This document shows positions 26,441-29,970 of a stretch of DNA of 44,521 nt, in pieces (the stretch's first letter is position 1; each line of letters begins with the position of its first letter). Under the pieces are notes generated by a model. It saw only the letters and a list, made by a program, of their open reading frames with translations, had not been told where the DNA came from and ran no database searches. Origin of the DNA: Alphaproteobacteria bacterium (lineage in GTDB: Bacteria > Pseudomonadota > Alphaproteobacteria > UBA9219 > RGZA01). The DNA lies in assembly GCA_021732145.1 (NCBI GenBank), contig JAKFVN010000011.1, positions 1 through 44,521 of the forward strand, read 5' to 3'. Made by a program: the position numbers and the translations under genes.

Positions 26441-28114
26441 TTAATTGGATTGGCGGCGCAGGAATGCGGGGATTTCCAGCGTTTCTTCTTCTGAAGAAAG
26501 ACGCGGACGATCCGACGCATTCACGCCCAGTTCCTTGGCTGGCTGTGATGCGTGCTGTTCAACAGGCGCTGCTGGCACATCGCGCTTGCCGCCAAATTCA
26601 GCGATGCGTGCAAACAACGAACTGCTGCGCTTCGTGTTTTGCTTTTCATTCGATTGCACGAATGCCGTTTGCTGCTGCGTTTGCTGGGCCTGCGGGAATT
26701 GCGGCTGCGAACCCGATTGGCCAAAGGAGATAGACGCAGGTTGCTGAACGGCTTGCGGTGCTTGCTGTTGCTGTTCAGCGGCTGTTGCCTGGTTCATGAT
26801 GCTTTCAGCTTGCTTGGCGCGTTCGAGTAATTGATCCAGCGCAGCGCTTTGTGATGATACGGTGTGTGGCTGCGGTTGCTTTGCTGCGCCCCATGTGAAC
26901 GGGGAAGAGAAAGATGGTTGCTGCGCCGCAGGTGCTTGCTGCTGGGGTTGCGGTGCCGGGTTATAGAACGAAGCCTGTTGTTGTGGCTGTTGCTGCGTGC
27001 GTTGGGCTTGCTGTTGTGCTGCAACGGGCGCGGTGAAACCAGCATTGAAGGAAGCTTGCTGCGGTGCTTGATGTGAAGATTCAGGGGCGCGGAATTTGGA
27101 AGTGTTCAATCCCGACATGCCCACGGCTTGGCTGCGTGGCATTTCAGCTTGCGCATCAATACCGGTTGCCACAACGGAAACGCGCATGCGGCCATCCATC
27201 TTTTCTTCGAAGGTTGAACCGAAGATGATGTTTGCATCTGGGTCAACTTCTTCACGAATACGATTTGCTGCTTCATCCACTTCAAACAGGGTCATGTCAT
27301 AACCGCCAGTGATGTTGATAAGAACGCCGCGTGCGCCCTTCATGGAAACGTCATCCAGCAATGGGTTGGCAATCGCGGCTTCGGCTGCGTTCACGCTGCG
27401 CTTGTCGCCTGTGGCTTCGCCGGTGCCCATCATCGCCTTGCCCATTTCACTCATCACGGAGCGGATATCAGCGAAGTCAAGGTTAATCAAACCAGGCATG
27501 ACCATCAAATCGGTCACGCCGCGAACACCGGAATGCAACACTTCATCAGCCATGCGGAATGCATCGGCGAAGGTTGTTTTTTCATTGGCAATCCTGAACA
27601 GGTTTTGGTTTGGAATGATGATGAGGGTATCAACATATTGCTGCAATTCGGCAATGCCGGCTTCCGCCATGCGCATGCGGTGGGAACCTTCGAAATGGAA
27701 AGGCTTCGTTACCACGCCAACGGTCAAAATGCCGTGTTCACGTGCTGCTCTGGCAATCACGGGCGCTGCGCCTGTGCCTGTGCCGCCGCCCATGCCGGCG
27801 GTGATGAAAGCCATGTTGGTGCCTTCCAGATATGCGTTGATTTCATCAATTTGTTCTTCGGCGGATGCGCGTCCCACATCCGGCTTTGCGCCAGCGCCAA
27901 GCCCTCTGGTCAGGTTCACGCCAAGCTGCAATTTACGTTCCGACAGATTGCTGGAAAGAGCCTGGGCATCGGAATTCGCTACCACAAATTCAACGCCTTC
28001 CAGATTGGAGCGGATCATGTTGTTGACCGCATTGCCGCCTGCGCCGCCAACACCAAAAACGGTGATACGTGGGCGAAGCTGGGTTTGCATTTCTGGAACA
28101 GTAATTTGAATCAT
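26441..28114 (-). CDS. ftsZ: cell division protein FtsZ
   Basis: 557 residues, long for the family. The tubulin-like GTPase domain covers about 13-325: [14 protein letters not shown], the tubulin signature GGGTGTG (109-115), IPNQNLFRI and the T7 loop region [25 protein letters not shown] linker of about 210 residues, very rich in Gln, Ala and Pro, follows. The conserved C-terminal peptide [12 protein letters not shown] binds FtsA and other partners. FtsZ forms the division ring at midcell. The gene is separated from ftsA by a plus-strand small gene, so it likely has its own promoter in the upstream leader, which holds a GANTC cluster. Confidence 0.97.
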
Positions 28115-28196
28115 GGTGATGAATCCCTAGGTTGAATTAGGCGTTTGGATAAGGTTTTGAATCTGTATCGGGAAGGCTAAGCCGCGGCTCGGATTC
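28108..28196 (-). promoter_or_regulatory. cluster of four GANTC sites in the ftsZ leader
   Basis: GANTC sites lie at 28108-28112, 28121-28125, 28159-28163 and 28192-28196, four within 89 bases where about one per 256 bases is expected by chance. GANTC is the target of the CcrM adenine methylase of alphaproteobacteria. In Caulobacter the ftsZ promoter is activated by CcrM methylation together with GcrA, so similar cell-cycle control is plausible here. The first site overlaps the first codons of ftsZ. Confidence 0.5.
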
Positions 28197-28206
28197 GAAG
28201 CAAGGC

Positions 28207-28222
28207 CAAATCAGCTGATTTG
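28207..28222. promoter_or_regulatory. 16-bp perfect palindrome upstream of ftsZ
   Basis: CAAATCAGCTGATTTG is a perfect dyad located 93 bases before the ftsZ start and about 140 bases before the opposite small gene. Such a site can bind a dimeric regulator. No known regulator consensus is recognised. Confidence 0.45.
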
Positions 28223-28282
28223 CGTAATGATTGGCCCAAACCCTTAATAGATTGGCTTGTTCAACGGCAATACTAAGGCCGG

Positions 28283-28314
28283 TTTTGGTGCCCAGCTTTG
28301 GCACAAAATATGCT
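28283..28314 (+). promoter_or_regulatory. candidate promoter and hairpin before the small plus-strand gene
   Basis: TTGGTG (28285-28290) and TATGCT (28309-28314) are 18 bases apart, 49 bases before the gene start. The same segment forms an imperfect hairpin (TTTTGGTGCC with GGCACAAAA, 28283-28308). The match is weak and the two readings may exclude each other. Confidence 0.25.
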
Positions 28315-28362
28315 TCTTACCCTATGCGCCCCCATGAATGGAAAGGCGCGAAGGAGATAGGC

Positions 28363-28683
28363 ATGACCAGTGCAATTTCAGGCTTAAGCAGCTATTTTCC
28401 AGGCCAGACTGTAGGCCAGACTGTTAATTTAGCGTCGGCCAAAAAGAATGCCGCCCAGTCAGATCCTGCCGAGGAACTGGTAAAATATTCCCAGATGTCG
28501 GCGGCAGACAAAATCCGCTATCAATACCTGCGCGCCCGCAACCTGACCGAGGAAGACCTGAACGCCATGTCGCCCAAGATACGCGCGGATATTGAAAAGA
28601 AGATTGCCGAAGAAATCAGGAAAAACATGCAAAAGCTTGGGAATGCCAACCCGGTTGGCTTGAACGTCAATATTGTTGCCTGA
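28363..28683 (+). CDS. small helical protein of unknown function inside the dcw cluster
   Basis: 106 residues. The frame is open further upstream, but AAGGAG at 28351-28356 lies 6 bases before the ATG at 28363, so this start is preferred. The N-terminal 35 residues are polar and Gly/Ser/Gln-rich. The C-terminal half is a charged helical region (MSAADKIRYQYLRARNL, then EEDLNAMSPKIRADIEKK and IAEEIRKNM). There is no signal peptide or membrane segment. It is the only plus-strand gene in the 24-kb dcw block, lies between ftsA and ftsZ, and is antisense to any ftsA-ftsZ readthrough message. I do not recognise a named family. A link to division is suggested only by position. Confidence 0.75.
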   Translation: MTSAISGLSSYFPGQTVGQTVNLASAKKNAAQSDPAEELVKYSQMSAADKIRYQYLRARNLTEEDLNAMSPKIRADIEKKIAEEIRKNMQKLGNANPVGLNVNIVA

Positions 28684-28700
28684 CCTTAAGCCGGTTTTTC
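28651..28700 (+). terminator. possible terminator of the small plus-strand gene
   Basis: CCGG-tt-GGCTT (28651-28661) can pair with AAGCCGG (28688-28694) with a 2-base bulge, followed by five T (28695-28699). It overlaps the 3' ends of the small gene and of ftsA, which converge with 15 bases between them. Confidence 0.4.
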
Positions 28701-29970
28701 AAATCGCGTTTCTCAGCCAGCCGCCAATGCGGTCAAAGAACCCTTGGCTTGCGCTCAAATCCTGGCCAAAGCGCGGCATGCCGGCGACGGGGTTTGTGGT
28801 GTACGCAAGCAATCCCGCAATCGTCGCAAAGGCAGGGCCCGATGCGTTATCGCTTAAACCCTGCAATCGGTAGGGGCGGCCGATGCGCACCTGCTTATCC
28901 AGAATGCGCTGCGCCATTTCACGAATGCCCGGCAATTGACACGCGCCGCCCGTTAGAACCACGCGGCGGTTTACGGCCACGCTGCCTTCCGCTGCTTTCA
29001 AGCGGTCGCGCAGATGCTCAAATGTTTCTTCCAGGCGCGGCCCGATAATGCGGATGAGATGGGATTTCGGAATATGGTTGGCATGTTCCGGCGCTTCTTC
29101 GCCAACTTGTGGCACGTCAATCATCTCGCGCTCGTCCGATGAGCTGGAAAGCGCATTGCCGAACAAGGTTTTCAAGCGCTCCGCGTGATTAACCGGCGTT
29201 GTCAGGCCGCGCGCAATATCATTGGTCACATGCATGCCACCAATCGGAATGCTATCGGCATGCACCATTTGCTTGTCATTGAATAACGCGAATGTGGTTG
29301 TACCGCCGCCCATATCAATCAGCGTTGCGCCCAATTCCATTTCATCATCCACCAAGCAGGCAAGCCCGCTGGCGAAAGGTGAAACCACCACATGCTCCAC
29401 ATGAAGATGGCAGCGTTGTAATGCAGAGAGGAGGGTGCGGATAGGCGCATAATGCGCGGAAACCATATGAAGCTTGGCATTCAGGTTATCGCCGATCATG
29501 CCGCGCGGGTCGCGAATGCCGTTTTGTCCATCAATGGAGAAATCGGTGGGCACCAGGTGAATAAGCTCCGAACCTTCCGGCAGGTTTTCCTGCTGGCCCA
29601 TAGCAAGGGCGCGTTCAATGTCATAATCGCTGGCTTCGCGGCCGTTCAGGTTGATATGAATATCGGCGTGGTGTGATAAAAGTTTTCCGCCGGAGAAATT
29701 CACAATCACGCGGCTGATTTTTTCGCCGGCTACTTCCTCGGCATTATCCAATGTCGCATTAATCGCGTTTTGCGCGGCTTCCACATCCACGATGTTGCCG
29801 CCCTTCACCCCTTGCGAAATATGATGCCCAATGCCGATGACCCGCGTGCCGCCTTCCGCCGTGGTGCGCGCAATGAAACAGCAGATTTTGCTCGAGCCAA
29901 TATCCAGCGCGGCAAGAATATCGCCTTTGCTGCTGGGGCGTTTGCGGGCGGCTGAATGATCATTGGTCAT
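28699..29970 (-). CDS. ftsA: cell division protein FtsA
   Basis: 423 residues. FtsA is an actin-like ATPase that ties FtsZ filaments to the inner membrane and recruits late division proteins. The first phosphate loop ALDIGSSKICCFIA and second phosphate loop LIDMGGGTTTFALF are clear, as is the adenosine region VVLTGGACQLPGI. The last residues FFDRIGGWLRNAI form the amphipathic membrane-targeting helix. An N-terminal extension of about 16 polar residues precedes the actin fold. It starts 9 bases after ftsQ and is the last gene of the continuous ftsL-to-ftsA run. Confidence 0.96.
   Translation of the reverse strand: MTNDHSAARKRPSSKGDILAALDIGSSKICCFIARTTAEGGTRVIGIGHHISQGVKGGNIVDVEAAQNAINATLDNAEEVAGEKISRVIVNFSGGKLLSHHADIHINLNGREASDYDIERALAMGQQENLPEGSELIHLVPTDFSIDGQNGIRDPRGMIGDNLNAKLHMVSAHYAPIRTLLSALQRCHLHVEHVVVSPFASGLACLVDDEMELGATLIDMGGGTTTFALFNDKQMVHADSIPIGGMHVTNDIARGLTTPVNHAERLKTLFGNALSSSSDEREMIDVPQVGEEAPEHANHIPKSHLIRIIGPRLEETFEHLRDRLKAAEGSVAVNRRVVLTGGACQLPGIREMAQRILDKQVRIGRPYRLQGLSDNASGPAFATIAGLLAYTTNPVAGMPRFGQDLSASQGFFDRIGGWLRNAI

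Follow-up and report, generated by a model that had tools for sequence, protein, structure and literature searches.

Gene organization at the ftsA-ftsZ junction

The window, that is, the whole 44,521-nucleotide stretch of alphaproteobacterial DNA analyzed here (contig JAKFVN010000011.1 of assembly GCA_021732145.1), carries on its minus strand the genes ftsW, murG, murC, murB, ddl, ftsQ, ftsA and ftsZ, followed by lpxC. The start of ftsZ (28114) and the end of ftsA (28699) enclose a 584-bp space, which holds a short plus-strand gene for a protein designated P0001, with its ATG at 28363 and its stop ending at 28683. The ends of this gene and of ftsA are separated by 15 bp. The family-level check of the FtsA assignment was made on the orthologue of the sister genus (G003). 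The first-pass annotation had described a 106-codon open reading frame at this position and on this strand, preceded by an AAGGAG ribosome site with 6-base spacing, as the only plus-strand gene in the dcw block and as separating ftsZ from ftsA; each of these statements is borne out, the surrounding dcw genes all being on the minus strand. A scan of the P0001 region for sigma-70 promoters and terminators returned none. The features of the locus are as follows.

26441..28114, minus strand: ftsZ, divergent neighbour of the P0001 gene
28115..28256, minus strand: ftsZ upstream region, almost unchanged in the alignment of the window's genome (G000) with its congener G002
28298..28315, plus strand: sigma-54 (-24/-12) promoter-like box TTGGCACAAAATATGCTT of the TGGCAY-N5-TTGC type, spaced exactly GG-N10-GC and located 65 nt upstream of the ATG
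28351..28356, plus strand: Shine-Dalgarno site AAGGAG, followed by six bases (ATAGGC) and then the ATG
28363..28683, plus strand: 106-codon gene for P0001, whose family, as yet unnamed, occurs in flagellated Proteobacteria (homologues, purifying selection)
28363..28461, plus strand: codons 1-33, low-charge N-terminal stretch rich in Ser/Thr/Gly/Asn/Gln, predicted to be disordered (AlphaFold2, composition)
28465..28641, plus strand: codons 35-93, core of four helices that bears the family motif (alignment, AlphaFold2)
28699..29970, minus strand: ftsA, convergent neighbour of the P0001 gene

The junction had initially been regarded as normally tight, a description which does not hold in this order, where it is loose or broken. 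About half of the ~22 evaluable genomes have no ftsZ near ftsA and carry other genes after ftsA, while in the linked genomes the gap ranges from 217 to 1702 bp. In the sister genus the two genes lie 322 bp apart and a P0001 homologue is absent. Among the ftsA downstream regions of the order (L050-L069), the genes which follow ftsA in the uncoupled genomes are of secA, dnaE, aminotransferase or efflux type, and the junctions that persist often hold other open reading frames counter to the dcw direction, such as one in G013 (118 aa) and one in G018 (181 aa). Since ftsZ and ftsA are uncoupled, ftsZ would be transcribed from the region 28115..28256, and the near-unchanged state of this ftsZ-proximal part of the intergenic space is what a separate ftsZ promoter at this place would lead one to expect. 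The 248-bp region upstream of ftsZ also contains GANTC sites at 28121, 28159 and 28192, the latter two of which are kept in G002; the density of such sites in the window is 1.1 per kb. In many Alphaproteobacteria GANTC is the word methylated by CcrM, and the sites may possibly reflect cell-cycle control of ftsZ.

Conservation and selection within the genus

All three genomes of the genus keep a gene of the P0001 family at the ftsA-ftsZ junction. The congener G002 has a full-length orthologue of 106 aa with 79% identity, and the third congener, G001, has a fast-diverged homologue with 38% identity. A gene of the family is thus present at the same junction in these two congeners and absent from it in the sister genus and beyond. 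Differences between the genes of the window's genome and G002 fall at codon positions 1, 2 and 3 in the numbers 14, 11 and 38 (dN ~0.12, dS ~0.82, dN/dS ~0.15), and the P0001 open reading frame is a real, selected protein-coding gene. FtsA is 97% and 91% identical to that of the window in G002 and G001, respectively, compared to 79% and 38% for P0001, from which it follows that P0001 evolves roughly seven times faster than FtsA. In G001, an addiction-module-like pair is inserted between ftsA and the P0001 family gene at this junction (L004, 760-1390), consisting of a Pfam dnstrm_HI1420 antidote and a Gp49-like partner which scores just below its cut-off.

Sequence, structure and distribution of the protein family

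The conserved part of the family members can be summarized as FLxYxxxSPAERxRxxxLxxxxLTEExLxxMSPEERxxIExxIxxxIxxK. In the AlphaFold2 model of P0001 the first third is disordered and four helices span residues 35-93 with a pLDDT of ~90 (70.6 overall), in agreement with the charged helical C-terminus recognized earlier. Among 50 members, the first 20 residues contain few charges, and S, T, N, G and Q account for 46% of them, compared to 26% in 19 control proteins. Such an N-terminus is compatible with a flagellar export tail.

P0001 belongs to an undescribed family without a public model. P0001 itself has no match in Pfam or NCBIfam at E values up to 10. Searches of Pfam, NCBIfam and PHROGs with the family members gave only scattered sub-threshold matches on which the members do not agree; the CCDC90-like, MepK and tail_comp_S matches were set aside for these reasons. 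A sequence search of the PDB produced nothing convincing, and the best structural matches (Foldseek, E 2.9; VIA-align, Z 3.8) are not meaningful for a small helical model. The literature search found no description of the family or of such an insertion between ftsA and ftsZ.

A scan of genome contigs with P0001 alone as query gave no matches. A first family profile, built from eight order-level members, finds the family in 9 of the 33 genomes of the order and in 30 of 289 sampled genomes of the class (~10% of Alphaproteobacteria), with one match per genome, and a second profile based on 27 members recovers the same set plus one weak case. The weak matches at L105 (G202) and in G101 are probably not true family members. 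A scan of named genomes extends the family to Oceanibaculum, Dongia, Desertibaculum, Azoarcus, Duganella/Rugamonas and many Pseudomonas, and a plasmid search to Agrobacterium, Rhizobium and Azospirillum. A phage origin was considered and set aside; the search of a phage collection gave no family match. The family is normally present in a single copy per genome. In G234, two adjacent family-like open reading frames lie on the same strand (L082, 1126-1489 and 1498-1875). The first matches the family weakly, and a single sigma-54-like box stands 49 nt ahead of it; the two may represent a tandem duplication.

A sigma-54 promoter-like box upstream of the family

The TTGGCACAAAATATGCTT box forms an island of identity between the window's genome and G002 in an otherwise diverged stretch. 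Boxes were scored against one fixed consensus (at least 20 out of 26) at positions -95 to -25 from the start codon. By this measure, a box within 95 nt of the start precedes 32 of the 38 family genes from Alphaproteobacteria, compared to 13 of the 190 neighbouring open reading frames (p ~1e-22); start codons were picked with a simple criterion based on the Shine-Dalgarno site, a source of noise. In the named genomes, the box precedes 70 of 82 family genes, including those of Pseudomonas and Azoarcus, mostly at 53-57 nt before the ATG, a count which overstates independence since many of the 82 come from close Pseudomonas relatives; the class sample is the cleaner one. The members from Oxalobacteraceae have no sigma-54 box, and a search of them for sigma-28 boxes gave scores no better than shuffles, except in L170 and, weakly, L175. 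Just ahead of their starts, the Oxalobacteraceae members L162, L170, L175, L176 and L201 share a palindrome-like sequence, TTACGCTATATTGCGTAA, in identical or slightly varied form. A search for enhancer or activator sites by word enrichment in the sequence preceding the sigma-54 box gave no clear motif.

In the window's genome, a strict pattern for the box yields 9 matches versus 1 in a reversed control, and a loose pattern 27 versus 4. A box was counted as gene-facing if it lay outside long genes and had, 50-82 nt downstream, a gene with a Shine-Dalgarno site; among the genes preceded by such a box are those of P0001, flgF, flgE, flbT, a GGDEF protein and two products of unknown function. Behind flgF lies flgG, and flbT, whose box is 50 nt before its start, is followed by a flaF-like gene and flagellin genes. 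P0001 therefore shares its promoter type with the Pfam-checked hook (flgE), rod (flgF) and flbT genes of the same genome. The GGDEF (diguanylate cyclase) protein (L254, 747-1445, G000:C27) has its sigma-54-like box 72 nt before the start. A 287-aa protein without a Pfam match (L256, 3-863, G000:C42) has one at 53 nt and is a candidate for another late-flagellar gene.

Co-occurrence with flagella and RpoN

In the class sample, the flagellar export gate FlhA is present in 29 of 30 carriers of the family compared to 137 of 259 non-carriers (p 5e-7, uncorrected for phylogeny). RpoN is encoded in the window's genome, in all 33 genomes of the order and in 30 of 30 carriers of the class sample. Sigma-54 correlates with flagella and exterior functions in general (PMC3162934), and this raises an alternative whereby P0001 would be a sigma-54-regulon protein that is not specific to flagella, serving for instance nitrogen, surface polysaccharide or c-di-GMP functions, and its association with FlhA would merely mirror that of sigma-54 with flagella. 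The box before the GGDEF protein agrees with such a role. Given this correlation, the discriminating comparison is the one within the 216 RpoN-bearing genomes, where the family still follows FlhA (29 of 153 genomes with FlhA versus 1 of 63 without, p 2e-4, uncorrected for phylogeny). The sole carrier lacking FlhA is G202, a 69%-complete genome with a weak match, whose congener G078 has FlhA; without this match the counts are 29 of 153 versus 0 of 63 (p 2e-5, likewise uncorrected). As the gene-facing boxes identified in the window's genome are also mostly flagellar, a non-flagellar role within the sigma-54 regulon is considered unlikely. FlhA occurs in all 33 genomes of the order and the family in only 9, so the family is dispensable for flagella and hence accessory.

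Discussion

The P0001 gene is probably an orphan member of the late, rod-hook class of the sigma-54 flagellar regulon (rough probability 0.68). None of the family members inspected lies beside flagellar genes, and the functional link is consequently drawn from promoter type and co-occurrence only. Further observations count against a flagellar assignment: most of the flagellated genomes of the order do not carry the family, sigma-54 also drives non-flagellar genes, as with the GGDEF protein here, the Oxalobacteraceae members lack the box and have no convincing sigma-28 replacement for it, and the search for an activator site gave no clear motif.

The location of the gene had initially suggested a lineage-specific cell-division factor, whose targets would be FtsZ or FtsA, encoded on either side of it. 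The specificity part of this suggestion stands, in that the gene is kept at the junction throughout the genus and there only, and the small, partly helical protein would suit such a role. The division part, however, is not supported. Homologues away from division genes had been named at the outset as a refutation, and every inspected member outside the genus is an orphan at an unrelated, non-division locus. Together with the absence of a homologue from the sister genus, the flagellar type of the upstream box and a divergence about seven times faster than that of FtsA, unlike a core divisome partner, this makes a division factor very improbable. A protein of the late flagellar programme that couples flagellum to division in this order, by acting on FtsZ or on division timing, would fit the sigma-54 box, the syntenic seat within the genus and the coupling of flagellar assembly to the cell cycle via FliX/FlbD in Alphaproteobacteria (PMC3096577), but the seat is not shared beyond the genus, and this reading has only a slight chance.

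Under the preferred assignment to the sigma-54 flagellar regulon, RpoN together with a flagellar enhancer-binding activator would activate the P0001 gene during rod and hook construction, the activator being presumably of the FlbD type in Alphaproteobacteria and of the FleQ/FleR type in Pseudomonas. With expression timed in this manner, P0001 would be present only during flagellar assembly, and its role would be confined to that assembly or its control. The helical core would then presumably interact with a flagellar protein or one of the export apparatus, and the polar N-terminus with its few charges could be a tail recognized for export or by a chaperone. The seat between ftsA and ftsZ would be incidental, since the junction in this order is an open site and ftsZ appears to have its own promoter region.

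Known flagellar proteins offer partial parallels. FliX is a small alphaproteobacterial regulator of flagellar assembly and partner of FlbD, with a low-complexity N-terminus followed by a helical part. P0001 is likewise small and alphaproteobacterial, with a sigma-54 late-flagellar link and a similar arrangement of low-complexity and helical parts, yet it has no Pfam FliX match at E values up to 10, and its family also occurs in beta- and gammaproteobacteria; the SPAERxR..LTEExLxxMSPEER motif is not known from FliX. FlgM, the exported anti-sigma-28 factor of the flagellar regulon, has ~100 aa, a disordered N-terminal half and a helical C-terminal half. P0001 resembles it in size, disordered N-terminus, helical C-terminal part and link to the flagellar regulon, but has no FlgM match in Pfam or NCBIfam at E values up to 10; its promoter is of the sigma-54 type, and a sigma-28 target like that of FlgM is not indicated for P0001. 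The small alphaproteobacterial flagellin regulators FlbT and FlaF share the small size, and the flbT box is of the same sigma-54 type; however, FlbT and FlaF are encoded in an operon with flagellin and have Pfam models, whereas P0001 is an orphan without one. P0001 may be an exported protein, a cytoplasmic regulator similar in logic to FliX or FlgM, or a chaperone. The favoured view, a small accessory factor that works at the export apparatus or by way of it, has perhaps one chance in three.

For the family as a whole, spread over alpha-, beta- and gammaproteobacteria and normally equipped with its own sigma-54 promoter, a role in flagellar assembly, either as an accessory component or as a checkpoint regulator, and possibly as an exported protein, is put forward tentatively and at somewhat less than even odds. 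Short genes that evolve fast and stand alone, at a distance from flagellar clusters, would explain why such a family has escaped notice.

The ftsA-ftsZ pair is thus often uncoupled in this alphaproteobacterial order, and, if the flagellar assignment is true, the location of a gene within the division cluster can be a poor guide to its function. Many Proteobacteria would then have an additional, so far unannotated gene family in their sigma-54 late flagellar programme, and the carriers of this family include culturable Pseudomonas and Azoarcus, which are open to direct testing.
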